Positions 14,981 through 27,917 of a stretch of DNA of 27,917 nucleotides are shown here, piece by piece. The notes beneath the pieces are model-generated. The model did not search any database and was not told the origin of the DNA. It saw only the letters and a program-made list of their open reading frames with translations. How positions within the stretch are numbered: the stretch's first letter is position 1; the number at the start of each line of letters is the position of its first letter. Source of the stretch: a virus; IMG/VR virus record IMGVR_UViG_3300025276_000168, positions 1 to 27,917 of that record; one strand, written 5' to 3'. Both the position numbers and the translations under genes were made by a program.

Positions 14981-15223
14981 CTACTTCCTTTGCTTGCGAT
15001 CTAAAAATGTCTCTGCCGTCGTAGCGGCGTCGAGTTTCATTTCGATCAGGTTTAGCGCACAGATTATCCCGTGCGCCGCTTCGCGTGCCTCTACGTCAGA
15101 GGCAACGCTGTCTGTGAAAACCTTTATCTGGTCATCACGAACGTCTTGCACAAACGACAGAAACGCGGTGTCAGCCTTTAGCCGCCGCGCTTCGTCTGCT
15201 TTTATGCGTATTTCTGTTGTCAT
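14981..15223 (-). CDS. Hypothetical late protein between portal and scaffold, 80 aa
   Basis: It starts in an ATGA overlap with the portal stop. The product is a helical, amphipathic protein (MTTEIRIKADEARRLKADTAFL, FVQDVRDDQIKVFTD, HGIICALNLIEMKLDAATTAETFLDRKQRK) with alternating acidic and basic patches. A gene of this size between portal and scaffold is common in short-tailed phages, where it may help head assembly, but I do not recognise the family. Confidence 0.7.
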   Translation of the reverse strand: MTTEIRIKADEARRLKADTAFLSFVQDVRDDQIKVFTDSVASDVEAREAAHGIICALNLIEMKLDAATTAETFLDRKQRK

Positions 15224-17304
15224 TGCTGTGGCATCCCTTGAGCCATTCCGCCAATCATGCGGACTTTATCCTGCTCGGCCTGCACACGGGCTACATCAAC
15301 GGCAGTGCCGTATTCGCCGTAAACCTTTGCTGCATCCACCAGCAAGTCTTGCGCCATCTGGTCACGCTTCAAGTCGTCCTCAGCAGAAGCTTTTTGCGCC
15401 TCAAGCTGCAACTTAGCCATGTCAGACTGCATCTTGGCTTGCGCCTTGATTTGCTCAGCCTGCAAGAACGCTGCATTTGGATCGGCTGCCTGACCTTGGG
15501 CTTCCTGAGCCTGTTGCTGCATCTGCAACATCTGCATTTCAATCTCTGGCGTAATTGGTGCAAAGTAGCGGTCAGCATTGCGTATGCCAGCGACAGCTAG
15601 TTGATCGGCCAATGTGTTGCGAATGTTGGTCATGCTGACCAAACCATTCTGCGGGCCGTATGTCTGGTAAACCATAGTCTGCATTTGCAGCGCTTGGTTT
15701 AGAGCCATCATCTTCTCTTCTTCACGGCCAGTGCCGAGGCCGACGTTGATTGATACGTCCATTGACGTATTCCAGACGCGCGGGTCAACTGGCACAAATG
15801 AGCCGTTCATTCGCATCATTTGCTCTTCGTCTACGTTCTTGCTGTAAAGGCGAAGCATAATGCCAAATAGGTCACGCATACCGTCTGCAAGGTTACGAAC
15901 CATAACCTCAACTTGGCCCGCAGCAGACTGTACAGTGGCCTGTACGGCTGCTTTGGTTGTTGACTGCATCGCATCTGGGTCAAGGCCCATAGAGGCTCTG
16001 GAAACGCCTGTTTTGGTCTCCACCAAGCCATCAAGATAAGTCAGCGCACCAAGTGTCTGGCCGGCAGTAAATGGCACTGACAGCTCCTGCACTGAGCCGG
16101 GCTGACGCATGCGAACGATTGCGCCGATTTCGTTGTTTAGCACATCGTCAATATTGACTGCGCCCTCAACAATGCCCAGGCGAGGATTGTTTGTCATTGC
16201 CACATTGTCGAGGATTGAGCGCAGCACAGACGTAGCTGCGTCCTGATCGTCCATGACAATTTCAGCAAGCGATTGACCGTAGAATGCGTGTGGCTCTGGG
16301 TCGATCTCAAACTTGGCAAATGGCAGCTCATCGCATGGCTCAAAATCAAGCATTTCGTATGCTGTGCCGCCGCAAGTAATCTTGTGCAAAACAGGAATGC
16401 CAGTGCCGTCTACGTCAATTCGCATATAAGCTTCTGTCACGGCAACATTACGCATAGACGGGTCTTGCTCATCCTCGTCTGATGTATCCGCTCCGTAGCC
16501 TTGGCGCTCGAACACCTCGGCCTGCGTAATGTCAGACCCTTCCTCAAAGTTGTCCAAGTTTATGACAACCTCTGGGTCGTAGCCCATAGCAATCAAATCG
16601 CCAGCACGCATGTCTGTGCGATGAGCTACAACGTAGGCGTCGGCAAGGCTTCGAGCATCACGGTTAATGAAAAACTCTTCTGGCGGCACGCTTTCAATGC
16701 AAAGCTCACCCTTTTCCTTTTGGCGGCTAATCTTTGTGCTGTGGACAGGCATTTCAACTTCCATGCCCATTTCGTCAATTTCAGCCGTATATACAACTGT
16801 ATGCTCAATCACGGTCACATCATCGTCATCAACAAGATACGTGTACTCATCGTCTGACAGGTCTGTGAACGTGTAAATCTCAGCCTCTGGGTACGTCATC
16901 CAGTAGGCTTTCACGATCCCTTGTTTTTTAACAAGGGCGTCTTGAAAGGCGTCATTCATCACGCGATACCCGTTTAGGCGGGTAAACTCATGGTGCATAA
17001 ACTCAGTGGCCTGCTCCGCCATTGCCACATCTTCTGGACCGTTTGGCGTGTACTCAACAGGTTTGGCTGTGCTGAGGAAAATACGCATTAAACTTGGCTT
17101 CACTGCACGTACGGTATCCCGTACCTTTGTGGCTACAACTTTGCTGCGTCCATCCTCATGGCCAAGGTCAACCTCGCCATCATAATAGCGTTGCGCCTTA
17201 ATGCGGTCATGGCTAATTTCGCCTTCAATGAAGTCTACAGCGTCGGAGATTGCGTCTTGGACAATGCTTTCAACTTCGCTATCTGATTTGGGTTTAAGTT
17301 CCAT
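15220..17304 (-). CDS. Portal protein
   Basis: A 694-aa protein beginning with helices typical of P22-like portals (SIVQDAISDAVDFIEGEISHDR), followed by the RAKV-type segment DTVRAVKPSLMRIFLSTAKPVEY, a beta-rich body (SVPPEEFFINRDARSLADAYVVAHRT) and a YGQSLAEIVMDDQDAATSVLRSILDNVAM stem helix. The C-terminal third is a Gln/Ala-rich coiled-coil barrel (MQMLQMQQQAQEAQGQAADPN). The portal ring is the packaging gate and connector at the capsid vertex. Its ATG shares a base with the stop of the upstream internal-protein gene (TAATG). Length fits podovirus portals. Confidence 0.9.
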   Translation of the reverse strand: MELKPKSDSEVESIVQDAISDAVDFIEGEISHDRIKAQRYYDGEVDLGHEDGRSKVVATKVRDTVRAVKPSLMRIFLSTAKPVEYTPNGPEDVAMAEQATEFMHHEFTRLNGYRVMNDAFQDALVKKQGIVKAYWMTYPEAEIYTFTDLSDDEYTYLVDDDDVTVIEHTVVYTAEIDEMGMEVEMPVHSTKISRQKEKGELCIESVPPEEFFINRDARSLADAYVVAHRTDMRAGDLIAMGYDPEVVINLDNFEEGSDITQAEVFERQGYGADTSDEDEQDPSMRNVAVTEAYMRIDVDGTGIPVLHKITCGGTAYEMLDFEPCDELPFAKFEIDPEPHAFYGQSLAEIVMDDQDAATSVLRSILDNVAMTNNPRLGIVEGAVNIDDVLNNEIGAIVRMRQPGSVQELSVPFTAGQTLGALTYLDGLVETKTGVSRASMGLDPDAMQSTTKAAVQATVQSAAGQVEVMVRNLADGMRDLFGIMLRLYSKNVDEEQMMRMNGSFVPVDPRVWNTSMDVSINVGLGTGREEEKMMALNQALQMQTMVYQTYGPQNGLVSMTNIRNTLADQLAVAGIRNADRYFAPITPEIEMQMLQMQQQAQEAQGQAADPNAAFLQAEQIKAQAKMQSDMAKLQLEAQKASAEDDLKRDQMAQDLLVDAAKVYGEYGTAVDVARVQAEQDKVRMIGGMAQGMPQQ

Positions 17305-18890
17305 TATTGCTGGTCCTCGATTAGCTCATTAGAAACCCCAATTGAGGGCATTAGCAGGCTGTTTACAAAAGTCTTGTCGATTAGTTCTTTTGGCGCGCCA
17401 CCTGCAACAACCAAATCCTGAAGCTGCTTAGTCGCCTTTGTGATCTTGGACTGAGAAAGCTTGCGAGACACGCCAGACACGGCCGTCAGACCAAGAAACG
17501 CGGGGTTGATATAGGCCGTGGCAATGTTGAGGTATGTCATCAGGCCATTTCCATTTGGCGCAAGCTTACCCGCAACATTCATAACACGCTGGGGAACGCT
17601 ACCCCTGACAATGCTCTCCATTGCGGAGACCTCATCTGGGCTGAAGAATTTAATCTTGTTTGGGTTTTCTAGTATCTTTGATATGGATGACTTGTACTTC
17701 GATACAACATCAACAGACGCACCAGAGGAGACTTTCCTCCTTGTTTTCCCAAACTCTTTTTCGAGAAGCATAGCCTTTGCATACTTTGAGTTTGCTGCTC
17801 GCGCCGCTTTGACCAGATTGTCGCTTCCAGCTTTAGATGCAAGGCTATCATCCAGTGACTTTATCATGGTCAATATTTCTGGCTGGTCTTTTGCGCCGTT
17901 GTAAATCTTACTAAGCTTGCGAACCACTTTGTCATACTGCGCAAGAGTTACGCTTTGCCCTCCTAAGCCCTCCAGCAAATTAACCGCTGCCATTGTGGCG
18001 TCGTCTGTTGCCGCGTAAGCACCTTGATCAAAGGCGCTGCGAACGGCCTTGTTAATCATGTCCTGAGTTTCATTTGCGTCGAAGCTCTGGCCTGACTTCT
18101 TAACTTGGTCATAGGCGTAATTTTTTTCTGATTTCAGGCTCTGAACTGTTGGTGCGTGAGCGTTTCGGCTCCTCACTGCATTTAGTGTTTTGTTGCCTGT
18201 ATTCACGGCGTTGATTGCCGCTACCGGCGAGAGGAAAGCACCCGCAACCCTAGCAGTCGTCTCAAGGCCAGCTCCAGCACCAGCAGCCTCAGCTAATTGC
18301 CCAGCCGCTTCACTGCCAGCACCAGATACCACCGCAGCAGATTGCGCCTGACCTGAAAGGCCAGCTCTGTCTAGAGCTTCACCAACCTTACCTGCTCGAC
18401 CACCTGAAGCGCCAGCAAGTTTGGCCCCGCCTTTTACCAGCTTACCTACTCCACCTACGGCACCGCCACCGCCAGCAAATTCGCTAATAGTGCCAGCAAA
18501 CTTACCAGCGCGGGTTTTGCCCTTATAATCAAGCTCATCGTCAAGCCCCAAAGCCTCAACACCCGAACGCAAGACTCTACCTGTGGCGGTGTCAAGTACT
18601 GGCAAATCCTCACCAACATCTGCCCCAAGATATTGCAATGCCTCTTGGCCGCCGCGAAGTATTGCGCGACCAGCCATTTCAGGTAGCTCAAGGGTTCCAA
18701 GCAAGCCACGGCCAGCTCCTGACGCGGCTGCTTTTCCAATATCTTCTGCGTATTCGCCAACTGTGTCGATTTCGTCAGCGGGCTGATTGCCAGCAAGGCT
18801 CTTGCGCAACGCGGCATAAGCACCTTCAGCACTATTACCCGTTACTTCATAAGTTTTGCCGTTTGGCGCGGTTATTTCAAATGTTGGCAT
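17304..18890 (-). CDS. Internal virion (DNA-ejection) protein, 528 aa
   Basis: A beta-strand opening (MPTFEITAPNGKTYEVTGNSAEGAYAAL, like small domains at the start of podovirus ejection proteins) is followed by a long Ala/Gly-rich amphipathic region (about 55-225) with several potential membrane-active segments, then a helical, charged C-terminal half (NLVKAARAANSKYAKAMLLEKEFGK) and a final hydrophobic stretch (YINPAFLGLTAVSG). Genes of this character lie immediately upstream of the portal in short-tailed phages and encode proteins that leave the capsid to form the DNA channel. Enzymatic motifs are absent. Function is by analogy. Confidence 0.65.
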   Translation of the reverse strand: MPTFEITAPNGKTYEVTGNSAEGAYAALRKSLAGNQPADEIDTVGEYAEDIGKAAASGAGRGLLGTLELPEMAGRAILRGGQEALQYLGADVGEDLPVLDTATGRVLRSGVEALGLDDELDYKGKTRAGKFAGTISEFAGGGGAVGGVGKLVKGGAKLAGASGGRAGKVGEALDRAGLSGQAQSAAVVSGAGSEAAGQLAEAAGAGAGLETTARVAGAFLSPVAAINAVNTGNKTLNAVRSRNAHAPTVQSLKSEKNYAYDQVKKSGQSFDANETQDMINKAVRSAFDQGAYAATDDATMAAVNLLEGLGGQSVTLAQYDKVVRKLSKIYNGAKDQPEILTMIKSLDDSLASKAGSDNLVKAARAANSKYAKAMLLEKEFGKTRRKVSSGASVDVVSKYKSSISKILENPNKIKFFSPDEVSAMESIVRGSVPQRVMNVAGKLAPNGNGLMTYLNIATAYINPAFLGLTAVSGVSRKLSQSKITKATKQLQDLVVAGGAPKELIDKTFVNSLLMPSIGVSNELIEDQQ

Positions 18891-18899
18891 GTGTTTACC

Positions 18900-20345
18900 T
18901 CATGGCTTTTGCTTGATGGTGTAAACACCGTCTTCCGCCTCGATTTCTTGAGTACTTCCAGTGGAAGCCTCTGAAATCTTGGTTCTGGTGTAGCCGACCT
19001 TCGCCCTTACGTCTTCTGGATACTCGTTGAACTTGTTAAGTATAGCTAAGTATTGCGCTTCAATGCCCTGCAACTGATCTGCAAATTGTTTCTGTGACTG
19101 TGCCTGATTCAAATTGCCCAAAGTTGCCTGAAGGGATGTAAGTTCCTGATTTGAAACGTTACCCAATGCCCCACCTGTAGGGCTTTCCATGCGCATTCTC
19201 TGTAATCTATCAAAGCCAATATTTGCTTTAATAGTATCAGCCAACGCACTAACGTCGTAAGCGCTTGTGCCGGGAACCTTTTGCAACATGTTTCCAGTCA
19301 GACCGGCAATAGGAAGCTTTGAGTTCTTGAGCATGTCCTGTATCGAGTTAATGTTGCCCAAAACCAGACCTGCTGTTGTCACAACAGTGGCTTCGCCCTC
19401 TTTAGTTTTCTGCGCGCTCCTGTCGATTTTGCCGCCCTCTATAGGCACAAGCTTGTAACCCACAATGTTGCCACGCTCATCTTTCTCAAACTCATACGCC
19501 ATTCCAGACTCAGGCTTGGGCAGGTTGGCGCGAATTGCAGCCTCTTGGCTAAAGATGTCACCACCACTTGCAATAAATCTTTGATACTCTGGCGTACCCG
19601 GCTTGTAACCAGCGGCTAGTGCATTTCGGATTAGGGCTGTGTCTTTTGTGTTCCCAGCCTTCTGAGACATTTGCAGACCAGCAGAACCAGTAATCGCACC
19701 GCTAAGTACGCCAGCGCCAATCTCCTTAAAACCATTGTCCGAAAGCCACTTCCCAGTGGCATTGCGCTGTTTATCCTCACGACGCTGCTCAATGCCACCC
19801 TGCAATGCAGCCATCATCCCTTGGTTCGGGTTGTGCGTCATGCCTTGCAGCGCCATTGCTAAACGAGCGCGCTTATCTTTGTCTCCGAATAAGCCCGAAA
19901 GGATGCCTTTTGGTTTTTGATCTGGCTGCATCATTTGCTGGCCCCCCGTAGGTGTAGCCCCAGTGCCAAGGGCATTGTTGAATTTATTAACATACTTCGA
20001 ACCTGTGGTTCCAAGCATGTCTGATCTGTTAGCGCCTTCAGACGCTGGACGACCCGTAAACCAGACCGACGCTGCGTCCTGCGGATTGCCGTATTTAGCA
20101 ACGCTTGAGCCAAACTCACCTTTAAACACAGCATCCTGTGCTTCAGGGCTTCGCAAGAATTGATCTGGTGTCAGCTCTTGACCAAGATGTTTTTTAGTCC
20201 AGCTTGGAATGTTGAAATCCATCACTTGATATTTGCCGTAGGCTCGGTTGCCCTTTTGAGTGACAGGCCCGACGGCATTATAGCCGCCGCTGCCTTGGCT
20301 CTCAATCGAAGCAATCGCGTTAGCCCATGATGGATTCCAGTTCAT
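18900..20345 (-). CDS. Virion-associated muralytic/ejection protein, 481 aa
   Basis: Residues 1 to about 115 are a lysozyme-like/transglycosylase-type domain: WANAIASIESQGSGGYNAVGP with the catalytic Glu (residue 14), GNRAYGKYQVMDFNIPSWTK, an LTPDQFLRSPEAQDAVFKGE helix and DAASVWFTGRP. It would cut peptidoglycan during DNA entry. The remaining 365 residues are an Ala/Gln-rich helical virion part (RARLAMALQGM, LGNINSIQDMLKNS, LQGIEAQYLAILNKFN) without further catalytic motifs. The start shares one base with the upstream stop (TAATG). The layout, muralytic domain on a large internal protein, is like T7 gp16 or P22 gp4 in concept. Confidence 0.75.
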   Translation of the reverse strand: MNWNPSWANAIASIESQGSGGYNAVGPVTQKGNRAYGKYQVMDFNIPSWTKKHLGQELTPDQFLRSPEAQDAVFKGEFGSSVAKYGNPQDAASVWFTGRPASEGANRSDMLGTTGSKYVNKFNNALGTGATPTGGQQMMQPDQKPKGILSGLFGDKDKRARLAMALQGMTHNPNQGMMAALQGGIEQRREDKQRNATGKWLSDNGFKEIGAGVLSGAITGSAGLQMSQKAGNTKDTALIRNALAAGYKPGTPEYQRFIASGGDIFSQEAAIRANLPKPESGMAYEFEKDERGNIVGYKLVPIEGGKIDRSAQKTKEGEATVVTTAGLVLGNINSIQDMLKNSKLPIAGLTGNMLQKVPGTSAYDVSALADTIKANIGFDRLQRMRMESPTGGALGNVSNQELTSLQATLGNLNQAQSQKQFADQLQGIEAQYLAILNKFNEYPEDVRAKVGYTRTKISEASTGSTQEIEAEDGVYTIKQKP

Positions 20346-21982
20346 TAAGCTGCCTCTAGCTCTTTAGTGAGTCCAGTGTAGTTTACCCGCAAATAGCCAT
20401 CTTTGCCACGTTGAACTAGGTGCGGATGCGTTTCTTGTAACTCATCTGCGATAACGCCGAAAGTAGGCTGGTCAGGGTTTGCGATACGCTTGCCCTCATC
20501 ATTCCAATCCCAGTTGTAAAACTTAACGCCGTTAAGCTCACCCGCTGGCACAATGTTGTCCTTGAGGCGCACGTCAGACATTCCAATACCCAAGCTAAGA
20601 TAATCGAATAGACCCGGCTGGCTGCTAGACGTAGTTGACTGTGGCACTGGCGTAACGCCAAGTGCAGCCAATGGTGCTGACAGTGCTGCGCTTGGTGCGC
20701 CTGTGTAGCCTGCGTATTGGCCGCGTGCTGCGTCGATGAGTGCCTGCTGCAAGCCCTGCTGCATAAGACCCTGCTGCAATTGGTTCTGTTGGATAGTTTG
20801 GCCCGTGTTGAACGCTTGATTGCCAAGCCCGCCAAGCTGGCCTGCCGCGCCAAGACGCGCCTGATTGCCCTGCAAACCTGCTGACTGGTTAAGCTGCTGC
20901 GCCATCATTGCGTTTCCAGCGTTATACTGACCCGCTTGATTGAGCGCGCCCATGTTTGACAGCGCCATTTGGTTTTGCGCGCCTGCACCAAACTGAGCCG
21001 CTGCGTTTTGCGCACCCATGTTTGTTGCCGCTGCTTGATTTGCTGCGCCTGCACCAAACTGTGAGGCTGCGGTTTGTGCTGCCGCCGCTTGCTGTGAAGC
21101 AACATTTTGCGCTCCTGCACCAAACTGAGCCGCTGCCTGCTGTTGAGCTGACTGCTGCATCCCTGCTTGGTTTGATGCTCCTGCACCAAACTGTGAAGCC
21201 GCATTTTGAGCCGCCGCCGTTTGCGCCGCAGCCTGATTTGCTGCTCCCGCTCCGAACTGTGAAGCTGCGTTTAATGCTGCTTGGTTTGACAGGTTTGATT
21301 GTTGACCGAAGCCAGCGCTGGTTGTGCCTGCCTGCAAGTTTGCTTGCTGGTTGGCCAACGCAGCTTGTTGAGCTGTGCCAATGTCCTGCTGCGCCATTTG
21401 CTGCGCCTGAGTAAAGCCAGCCTGACGTAAGCCTGAAACAGCTTGGGCCGCTTTGTCTGCGTACCCTTTGCGGGTTTCAGCTTCGGCAATGCCCTGACGT
21501 GAACCGCCAAACGCGCCAGCAGCGCTTGCCTGCGCTCCCATTTGGTTTAGTTCTTTTTCCTGCGCACCCTTTAAATCTGTCAGCGTTTGCTGAACAACTT
21601 GGCTTTCATACGGGTTTGTGTATGCGCCAAGGTTTGAGCCAGCAAGCTGACCAGCCTGCACGTTTTGCGCGGATACCGTTGGCGATTGACCAATGGTCGA
21701 TGCGCCGTAGCCAGTAGAGCCTGTTCCGGCAGCATTATACCCTTGAGAACCAACACCAGCCGCTTGAAAGCCTGTCGCTTGAGGCCCAGTAGCCTGATAG
21801 CCTTGGCTTTGCATTGCGCTTGGGCGGTATCCAGTAGCTTGCGCAGTTTGCGCTTGGTAGCCTGTTGGCTGAACTGACTGAGGCTGATAAGTCATTCCCG
21901 CCGCAGTGCCTAGCATGGCTTGCTGAAGGCCACTAGCAGCAGCTTGATTGACGTTGAAACCGCCTGTTGGTGAACCCGCCAT
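20345..21982 (-). CDS. Repeat-rich virion protein with C-terminal S74 chaperone domain, 545 aa
   Basis: Three regions are clear. Residues 40-99 are six exact decapeptide repeats starting TGY/QGY/TGF (bases 21686-21865). Residues 240-371 are six 22-residue repeats around QFGAGA, the last degenerate (20870-21265). The C-terminal 77 residues are a Peptidase_S74 intramolecular chaperone: MSDVRLKDNIVPAGELNG, a FYNWDW strand, then PTFGVIADELQETHPHLV, with Ser469 and Lys474 as the likely cleavage dyad. S74 domains usually trimerise tail spikes or fibres and then cleave themselves off, so this is probably a trimeric tail or ejection-apparatus protein. Between the repeats is a helical stalk (KELNQMGAQASAAGAFGGSR). 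Confidence 0.75.
   Translation of the reverse strand: MAGSPTGGFNVNQAAASGLQQAMLGTAAGMTYQPQSVQPTGYQAQTAQATGYRPSAMQSQGYQATGPQATGFQAAGVGSQGYNAAGTGSTGYGASTIGQSPTVSAQNVQAGQLAGSNLGAYTNPYESQVVQQTLTDLKGAQEKELNQMGAQASAAGAFGGSRQGIAEAETRKGYADKAAQAVSGLRQAGFTQAQQMAQQDIGTAQQAALANQQANLQAGTTSAGFGQQSNLSNQAALNAASQFGAGAANQAAAQTAAAQNAASQFGAGASNQAGMQQSAQQQAAAQFGAGAQNVASQQAAAAQTAASQFGAGAANQAAATNMGAQNAAAQFGAGAQNQMALSNMGALNQAGQYNAGNAMMAQQLNQSAGLQGNQARLGAAGQLGGLGNQAFNTGQTIQQNQLQQGLMQQGLQQALIDAARGQYAGYTGAPSAALSAPLAALGVTPVPQSTTSSSQPGLFDYLSLGIGMSDVRLKDNIVPAGELNGVKFYNWDWNDEGKRIANPDQPTFGVIADELQETHPHLVQRGKDGYLRVNYTGLTKELEAA
20870..21265 (-). repeat. 66-bp tandem coding repeats (22-residue QFGAGA units)
   Basis: Six consecutive 66-bp units encode 22-residue blocks starting at residues 240, 262, 284, 306, 328 and 350 of the S74 protein. 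Five share the core QFGAGA at positions 3-8 of the unit; the sixth has QYNAGN. Twenty-two residues equals two hendecads, the period of right-handed or amphipathic helices, so a long Ala-rich helical rod is likely. Unit identity at DNA level is lower than at protein level, indicating an old duplication. Confidence 0.8.
21686..21865 (-). repeat. 30-bp tandem coding repeats (decapeptides with GY/GF)
   Basis: Six 30-bp units encode 10-residue blocks at residues 40-99 of the S74 protein, each beginning T-G-Y, Q-G-Y or T-G-F and continuing with Gln/Ala/Ser-rich sequence. An exact 10-residue spacing of an aromatic suggests a regular beta or polyproline-like surface in the virion rather than a coiled coil. 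Confidence 0.75.
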
Positions 21983-21983
21983 C

Positions 21984-23486
21984 TTATGCGTCCCTCTTTA
22001 CTAGGCCGACAGCAAAGAACTGCGCCGTCCGAATTGTGAATGTAATCGCACCACGAAGCGTGCGGTCCTTGCCGCGAGCGAATGCAATGTAGCGACGGAA
22101 CTCGCTGTAATGCTCACGAGCTTTGCCTTTAGCAATCTTCTTGTTGCCGCAGTGACGATACCCACGGCGAATTGCCTCGCCCCACCATTTTCCGTGCAGC
22201 ACGTTCATGCACCAAACAACGGCTTCGCGCTTCATGCTTGGGGTAAATGCGCCGCTTTCAACTGCGTGGGTTGCAACTACACAGCCGTCGTCGGAGCTGC
22301 CCGCATAACCGCTATCACTTGATTCATCCTTCTTGCCTGCTCCGACGTTTAGCGCGCGGCTAATTACGTTTCCGGGAAGGTCAGTGGACGTAGCAACTGA
22401 GTTGCCGAGGTCAGAAATTACGCCGCCACCTGAGTATGTATCGCCGCTATTGTTGGGACCGCCACCATTAAGCATGTCAGCGATACCAGTGTATCCTTCA
22501 GATGTCTCTGGCGCAGTGTAGCCAGCGGCTGCCGCCAAGGCGGGGTCTACCTGACCCACATCGTAGCCCGTTTGCACCGTCGATCCAAAATCATTACTTG
22601 CAGTGTTGCTGTCAGTGTTTTCAACACTTGAGTAATTAGTATAGTCCGTGCCGCTCAAGGAGCTTCCTAGCGGAAAGTCAGATGAGGAGTAGATCGGATT
22701 GCTTGGGTCATTGTAAAAGTTAGGGTCGATACCATACTCATTTGCCATCGCGTCAACAGCATCAGAATTTGGCTGCAAAACTCCTACCGTTTCGTTTGTT
22801 GAGGGTGACGTGGTAGCGCCTTCATAATTTATATCTGGATTGTAGTATTGAGTGCTTTGGCCACCAACACCCACATTGGTCCCGCCGACAGTTGTACCTC
22901 CAACACCTACATTGGTCCCGCCGACAACCACATCTGTCTGAGGTGTAAAATTGTAAACGCTTTGCGGGCCTGCGCCAGCCTGCGCCTGCGCAATTGCCAA
23001 ATCATTTGCTCGGTTTGCTGCGCCTGTGTCACGCGCATCCTGTGCCATTGTTCCATACTGCGTGTAATCAACCATTGGCTGCATATTTGGTCCGGCAGCA
23101 CCTGTCCGTGGATTAATAAAGAAGCTGTCGATGTATTCCTTCTGACCGGGACGCTGCCTGCCAAGCTCGGCAAGTGATTCCTCGTACATAGGCGCAGATG
23201 AGTAACCGCGAACGCCGCCAGCGTACTCAGTTGGAGCTGCCATGCCGCCCATAATGTCTTGCTGGCTTGTTGGTGCTGCCATGCCAAATGCGCCAGCAGT
23301 GTCTGCTGTGTTCTGGAATGCTGCCTGCTGCATTGGCGTAAACGCTGCAACGTCAGGCCCGTAGTATGGCGTGTAGCCAATCTGTGAAATGCCTTCAGCT
23401 TTGTTAAGGTTGCGCTGTGCGGCAGCCTCAATGTATTCCGGGATTGTGACTTCGCTTGTGCTTGAGCCGCCTTTTCCGCCTGACAT
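21984..23486 (-). CDS. Large virion protein with Gly/Ser/Asn-rich body and a Cys-containing C-terminal domain, 500 aa
   Basis: The N-terminus (SEVTIPEYIEAAAQRNLNKAEG, then TPYYGPDVAAFTPMQQAAF) is a conserved start in tail/internal proteins of podovirus-like marine phages. The central 250 residues are low complexity with two near-identical GGTNVGVGG blocks. The last 100 residues form a distinct basic domain beginning DGCVVATHAVESG and containing WCMNVLHGKWWGEAIRRGYRHCG and ARGKDRTLRGAITFTIRT, which recalls CFI-x-TA-type cysteine modules found at the ends of phage tail proteins. It probably sits near the tail tip or is ejected. Start ATG shares one base with the upstream stop. Confidence 0.65.
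   Translation of the reverse strand: MSGGKGGSSTSEVTIPEYIEAAAQRNLNKAEGISQIGYTPYYGPDVAAFTPMQQAAFQNTADTAGAFGMAAPTSQQDIMGGMAAPTEYAGGVRGYSSAPMYEESLAELGRQRPGQKEYIDSFFINPRTGAAGPNMQPMVDYTQYGTMAQDARDTGAANRANDLAIAQAQAGAGPQSVYNFTPQTDVVVGGTNVGVGGTTVGGTNVGVGGQSTQYYNPDINYEGATTSPSTNETVGVLQPNSDAVDAMANEYGIDPNFYNDPSNPIYSSSDFPLGSSLSGTDYTNYSSVENTDSNTASNDFGSTVQTGYDVGQVDPALAAAAGYTAPETSEGYTGIADMLNGGGPNNSGDTYSGGGVISDLGNSVATSTDLPGNVISRALNVGAGKKDESSDSGYAGSSDDGCVVATHAVESGAFTPSMKREAVVWCMNVLHGKWWGEAIRRGYRHCGNKKIAKGKAREHYSEFRRYIAFARGKDRTLRGAITFTIRTAQFFAVGLVKRDA
22864..22926 (-). repeat. 27-bp direct repeat, two copies at 36-bp spacing
   Basis: Bases 22864-22890 and 22900-22926 differ at a single position and are 36 bp apart start to start. 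They encode the repeated GGTNVGVGG block in the Gly-rich part of the 500-aa virion protein. Near-perfect DNA identity shows a recent duplication, in contrast to the older repeats of the neighbouring gene. Confidence 0.8.
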
Positions 23487-26932: not shown

Positions 26933-27917
26933 TTATGCGTTGGTGCGGTAACTAATCGTGCCTTGGATAGATGCACTTGACCCAAAGGAATTGCCACTTC
27001 TTCCACTAATAGGACCATTACCTGTTAGCGTTGCATTGGTCATGTAAAAAGTAGTAGCAGCTTGGCCTATGTAAGTTGAATCTGCAGTCGAAGTGTTGGA
27101 GCTTCCGTAGGCTAAAACGTTACCTATATAGCCATAATCATTAGCAGAACTAGCATAAGGTAGCCCCCCTATAATAAGACCAGTGGCATTTGTTCCAGTA
27201 AGAGCGCTTATCCAAAACCACACGGTTACATGGTTGCCTATTTTTGTGTAGTTAGCGTTCTGCACAGTAAAGCCAGAAGCACCTCCCACAGCAGTAGGCG
27301 TCCAAGTCCCCTCCTCATAGTCATCCAGCTTATTAGCCGCCCCAGTGCCGCCGAGGTATACACCGCCAGACAGGTAGAGGTCTTTGAAGCGTGCGCCTGA
27401 GAACCCAAGGTCAACTGCGTTATCCCGACCACTCCCGCCAACGGAAGCTACAGGGAAAATACTGTCAATCCCATCGTTGAAACGAATAGCAGTATCACCA
27501 GTGCCGATGTCTAAGTCACCACCAGAAGTCCCAATACTCCCCACAGTGGTGCCGTCTTTGTTGAATTGCAAAAGCGTGCCATCGGTGGACAGGCGACGAA
27601 TGTAAGCTGGAGTGGCCCCACTGCGTGTCACCCATAGCTCGCCACTGTTTGATAATATGCTTCCTGTCGTGGAGGCATCAAAAGCATTCTTACCCACCAG
27701 CAAGTTACCGCTGCTGTCGAGGCGCATGGCTTCGCCGCCACTTGAGCTAACAGTCAAGTCACCACCAGCAGTCCCAATACTACCTACAGATACGCCGTCT
27801 TTGCGGAACTCTGCTATGCCGCCGTCTGTGGTGTTCCTGTTAAAGTATGCAACTGTACCGCTTCTGGTCACTGAAAAGTACCCATCATACGCCACTGCGA
27901 AGCCTGTGCCTGATGTA
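26933..27917 (-). CDS. Tail fibre C-terminal part (partial; 5' end outside the window)
   Basis: The frame is open to the edge without a stop (upstream residues read TSGTGFAV), so the gene continues outside. The visible part contains a duplicated block about 80 residues apart, each with VTRSG, AY, TDG, F-x-KDG and VGSIGT-x-GGDL. A NLLVGK segment, the ARFKDLYLSGGVYLGGTG linker and the terminal LDDYEEGTWTPTAVGG domain follow, a layout common in fibre proteins of marine phages. The C-terminal beta-rich domain (NHVTVWFWISALTG to the end) is the likely receptor-binding part. It does not contain an S74 chaperone. Confidence 0.8.
   Translation of the reverse strand, partial: TSGTGFAVAYDGYFSVTRSGTVAYFNRNTTDGGIAEFRKDGVSVGSIGTAGGDLTVSSSGGEAMRLDSSGNLLVGKNAFDASTTGSILSNSGELWVTRSGATPAYIRRLSTDGTLLQFNKDGTTVGSIGTSGGDLDIGTGDTAIRFNDGIDSIFPVASVGGSGRDNAVDLGFSGARFKDLYLSGGVYLGGTGAANKLDDYEEGTWTPTAVGGASGFTVQNANYTKIGNHVTVWFWISALTGTNATGLIIGGLPYASSANDYGYIGNVLAYGSSNTSTADSTYIGQAATTFYMTNATLTGNGPISGRSGNSFGSSASIQGTISYRTNA

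Follow-up and report, generated by a model that had tools for sequence, protein, structure and literature searches.

The window analysed here is a 27,917-bp viral contig, and the phage that carries the gene under study is of marine type. This gene, an open reading frame at 20345–21982 with an ATG start, was confirmed on the minus strand and encodes a 545-residue protein. From N- to C-terminus, the protein is built from a short start, an array of 10-residue repeats, a first conserved block (A), an array of 22-residue repeats, a second conserved block (B) and a Peptidase_S74 (S74) domain. The features of the locus are the following:

15220–17304, minus strand: SU10-type portal protein (PF23899, E = 4e-191)
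17304–18890, minus strand: 528-residue virion protein, encoded between the lysozyme-like and portal genes, possibly a further ejection protein (position; PHROG 21712)
18900–20345, minus strand: protein with a lysozyme/transglycosylase-like N-terminus, likely the second ejection protein (TTAATGA overlap, PHROG match, synteny)
20345–21982, minus strand: ejection-type virion protein with a C-terminal S74 domain, 545 residues
20348–20578, minus strand: mini-S74 cassette, residues 469–545, with a predicted cut before Ser469 (Pfam match, dyad, pLDDT of about 94)
20594–20863, minus strand: conserved core block B, residues 374–463, ending in the GLFDYL motif (457–462; alignment of relatives)
20864–21259, minus strand: six 22-residue (2 × 11) Ala/Gln repeats, residues 242–373, predicted to form a continuous helix
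21383–21661, minus strand: conserved core block A, residues 108–200, NPY...GAFGGSR...QAGFxxAQQMAQQDI (invariant columns, 43 relatives)
21704–21883, minus strand: six 10-residue repeats, residues 34–93, predicted to be disordered (period test; pLDDT of about 40)
21984–23486, minus strand: upstream gene ending in a 99-residue 'CVVATHAV' domain, syntenic in relatives

The preliminary description reported six exact copies of each repeat; both arrays are present and each keeps an exact period, but the copies within an array differ from one another. The 10-residue array has a period of exactly 10, with 43–44% identity at lags of 10 and 20, and the 22-residue array, beginning at residue 242, has successive spacings of 22, 22, 22, 22 and 22 and 56% identity at a lag of 22; in each case 0 of 2000 shuffles scored as high. 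Among relatives, the 10-residue repeats differ in copy number or are absent. Compared with the families PHROG 4287 ('DNA ejection protein') and PHROG 6121 ('virion structural protein'), the repeats of the window protein are lineage-specific expansions. The nearest homologue in a named phage, gp18 of Octadecabacter Antarctic DB virus 2 (61% identity over residues 417–542, same gene order), has 301 residues and lacks the repeat arrays. The AlphaFold2 model of the whole protein is of low confidence; it shows a disordered 10-residue repeat region, long helices at 162–286 and 292–421, and a confident S74 domain (pLDDT of about 94). The model contains no β-helix, and the region upstream of S74 is helical or disordered, with no β-rich spike. 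A phmmer search of the PDB with the whole 545-residue protein gave no match, and neither did a Foldseek search of the PDB at E < 0.001 with the full, low-confidence helical model.

S74 is a folding sensor of trimeric β-helical spikes and of MyRF. In the window protein, Pfam Peptidase_S74 matches residues 469–523 (E = 3e-7; 30.9 bits against a curated cut-off of 22), in agreement with the earlier placement of this domain at the C-terminus, and the figures given for its start and length, Ser469 and 77 residues (545 − 469 + 1), are right. The Ser-Lys dyad of S74 has the form SDxxxK (PMC10769870) and is intact here as Ser469/Lys474. The domain shares this dyad and a GVIAQE-type motif with the S74/ICA domains of endoNF, GA-1 gp12, T5 LTF, MyRF and Bdellovibrio MAT. 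Substitution S587A or K592A abolishes MyRF cleavage, for which Tyr615 and Tyr617 are also important (PMC8326128); in the HMMER alignment, the WxW of the window protein (Trp491/Trp493) stands at these two tyrosine positions. A profile built from 16 mini-S74s matches solved S74 structures, namely a neck appendage (3gud), MyRF (7dc3) and tail fibres (6f45 and 8jov). Ser, Asp and Lys are invariant across these 16 aligned sequences at an alignment identity of about 40%, and the same invariance in the wider mini-S74 set is partly by construction, the set having been gathered in part by the SDxxxK pattern.

The window S74 differs from the known S74/ICA domains in its length, 77 residues versus 92–126 or more, in lacking the C-terminal coiled-coil helix, and in being carried by a helical internal protein, not a β-helix. 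It stops 77 residues after the serine with only a 10-residue helix stub in the AlphaFold2 model. Two surveys, which used single consensus-like queries and favour sequences holding certain 8-residue words, yielded 125 distinct S74 C-termini, 54 of them short (63–83 residues), 71 long (92–126) and none intermediate. The long S74s that were inspected finish in a LLIEAIKEQQKQIEELKEKI-type helix, and this coiled-coil helix is absent from all 54 distinct mini-S74s. Every S74 found on ejection-type proteins is of the mini form, ending 63–83 residues past the catalytic serine. The restriction of these proteins to mini-S74s that keep the SDxxxK dyad and lack the coiled-coil helix of the sampled tail-fibre S74s looks new; the descriptions of PHROG 4287 and 6121 contain no split between short and long S74, and in the open-access literature we found no paper pairing peptidase S74 with an ejection protein and no clear report of S74 on such proteins. 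On the contig L104 the two forms occur together: a 410-residue virion protein (L104:1992–3224) has the short S74, and a 280-residue fibre-like protein (L104:7134–7976) has the long one. The HMO-2011-type Roseobacter phages L003 and L008 and the similar contig L101 carry mini-S74 on proteins of 800–860 residues; those of L008 and L101 have N-terminal transglycosylase/endolysin matches, so the mini-S74 cassette serves more than one type of ejection protein.

The assignment of the window protein to the ejection-protein class comes from its match to PHROG 4287 (E = 1e-13), which covers residues 246–540 and hence both body and S74. The match is not due to S74 alone, because the S74-less relatives L049 (3e-6) and L066 (4e-14) also match this family outside the S74 region. 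Among relatives, matches extend to both PHROG 4287 and PHROG 6121. The ejection role, which the preliminary description had listed beside that of a needle or tube, is upheld at the level of class; for a needle or tube no support was found. The combination of S74 with such a virion protein had been called unusual, which proved mistaken, since S74 recurs on ejection-type proteins in many phages and within both PHROG 4287 and PHROG 6121. The partial fibre reading frame at 26933 does lack S74, as had been noted, and the sole S74 of the 27.9-kb contig is the one described here.

Gene order provides further context. The gene is translationally coupled through the TTAATGA overlap to the gene at 18900–20345, one of whose PHROG matches is to a family 'released from the phage upon host infection' and whose Octadecabacter homologue is annotated as a cell wall hydrolase; it has no Pfam match, and the lysozyme call comes from a motif and the annotation of this homologue. 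Relatives and Octadecabacter DB2 keep the order of upstream structural genes, S74 gene, lysozyme-like gene, another gene and portal. Among better-known phages, namely Pseudoalteromonas H6/1, AH02 and Vibrio phage 199E37-1, the S74 gene occupies the slot of P22 gene 7, ahead of gp20-like and gp16-like genes, in a gene order that parallels P22 gp10-..-gp7-gp20-gp16. PHROG 598 ('DNA ejection'), the P22 gp7 family, matches P22 gp7 itself (2e-95) and the mini-S74 proteins L122 (2e-30) and PVA1 (4e-17); judged by these profile matches, some S74 proteins in the gene 7 slot are true gp7 homologues. The body of the window protein was also considered as a gp7 homologue, but no homology was detected (hhalign probability of 0.4%, no hmmsearch match). 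Its likeness to gp7 is that of the first ejection-protein slot, and 'gp7-like' therefore denotes slot and class, not descent. P22 gp7 has 229 residues, similar in core size to the shortest S74-less relatives of the window protein (221–252 residues); it is without S74, and its N-terminus is trimmed by the host OpdA according to its record note. A tblastn search over a bacterial genome collection confirmed no prophage relatives. The upstream gene at 21984–23486 ends in the CVVATHAV domain (21987–22283), which lies behind a Gly/Ser-rich linker, starts with this sequence and hence with Cys, is strictly C-terminal and has no Pfam match; it also occurs in L019–L022, L180, L182, L188, L201, L212, L215 and L222.

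These observations bear on another possibility, in which the protein is a tail needle, spike or fibre on the outside of the virion and its S74 is a standard trimer chaperone. Fibres and spikes are the typical carriers of S74, and the Octadecabacter homologue is annotated as 'tail spike protein/chaperone'; however, the body is long, helical and Ala/Gln-rich with no β-helix, the family matches are to ejection proteins, the S74 gene takes the P22 gp7 slot in better-known phages, and the sampled fibre S74s have the extra C-terminal helix that the window S74 lacks. We regard an external appendage as very unlikely.

The C-terminus of this family behaves as a cassette. Scored by C-terminal type, 110 distinct relatives comprise 22 with mini-S74, 51 with a domain named here CWVAREVYG, 36 with neither and 1 unclear, with no long S74, these counts depending on how the sets were collected. 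The CWVAREVYG domain (62–75 residues) is C-terminal and unrelated to S74; it begins with the sequence that gives its name and sits at the junction where other members of this ejection family carry S74. It is predicted by AlphaFold2 to have a confident all-helical fold, and comparisons with Pfam and with PDB sequences and folds gave no match. Carriers include L017, L066, L083, L176–L255 and the Puniceispirillum phage HMO-2011 locus L095:5102–7222, and at least 591 among the 600 matches listed were confirmed as CWVAREVYG stretches. On a tree of the core, in which six open-ended rows have an unknown S74 state, the presence of S74 requires at least nine changes on well-supported branches, and parsimony gives 14 changes over all states. 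In the pairs L015/L025 and L032/L057, S74 is cleanly present or absent between near-identical flanks. The use of mini-S74 as a presence/absence cassette on ejection proteins also appears to be new, and the descriptions of PHROG 4287 and 6121 do not include it. Such frequent switching is what would be expected if S74 were decaying junk, gained and lost repeatedly without function, but this is very unlikely: the S74-less relatives hold no S74 remnant in any of the three frames beyond the stop, and the catalytic and structural positions are invariant at about 40% identity. The same three-frame search led us to reject the idea that these relatives reach an S74 by programmed frameshifting or stop-codon readthrough.

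The position of the junction has implications for the fate of the cassette. S74-less relatives end a median of 16 residues after the start of GLFDY (n = 25), versus 15 from GLFDY to the catalytic serine in carriers of S74 (n = 20; p = 0.85), and the end of P22 gp7 (..GLLGSLF) coincides with the start of S74 in PVA1-type homologues (..GLLAAF/SD, the slash marking that start). The shared end point of the S74-less relatives makes removal of S74 plausible. The matching end points are consistent with cleavage, and an S74 added at an old stop codon and left uncleaved would give the same pattern. In the main rival explanation, mini-S74 no longer cleaves and stays on the virion protein as a small tag for oligomerisation or for docking, with the portal or neighbouring ejection proteins as examples of docking partners. 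MyRF trimerisation is driven mainly by the C-terminal helix, and the trimer is required for cleavage (PMC8326128). The trimer state is less secure than usual because this helix is missing, and mini-S74 cleavage may thus be slow, conditional or lost. A tag would also accord with the ability of the CWVAREVYG domain, which has no known protease, to take the place of mini-S74. On the other hand, the Ser-Asp-x-x-x-Lys pattern invariant in the mini-S74 alignment, whose candidates were partly gathered by that pattern, would be needless for a mere tag, and we consider a permanent tag unlikely, though the strongest of the alternatives.

We favour, as the somewhat more probable reading, a podovirus ejection (internal virion) protein whose S74 chaperone tag would be lost by self-cleavage, either ahead of virion assembly or in its course. 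The gene product would be made in an operon just ahead of the lysozyme-like ejection protein, with a helical Ala/Gln-rich body that the 10- and 22-residue repeats lengthen in this lineage, and with its last 77 residues acting as a cut-down S74 intramolecular chaperone. The mini-S74 would fold on the nascent chain, where it may hold chains together, possibly as trimers, or shield the hydrophobic C-terminal segment GLFDYLSLGIGM; it would then cut before Ser469 using the Ser469/Lys474 dyad and depart. The remaining body, with the same kind of end as the natural S74-less homologues, would be packed and later ejected, and this helical protein is probably fired into the host before the DNA. A broader and rather doubtful extension is that one ejection-protein junction accepts interchangeable C-terminal maturation cassettes, either the mini-S74 with its nucleophilic serine or the helical CWVAREVYG domain with its conserved cysteine, both being self-removing chaperones that would cut before their first residue, the mini-S74 doing so without the usual trimer helix.

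If the favoured reading is true, the occurrence on internal ejection proteins of a mini-S74 that keeps its dyad and lacks the trimer helix would mean that this domain can serve quite different clients. The mini-S74 would also suggest a testable means by which membrane-active ejection proteins could be restrained until packaging, and the cassette pairs are natural with/without experiments.
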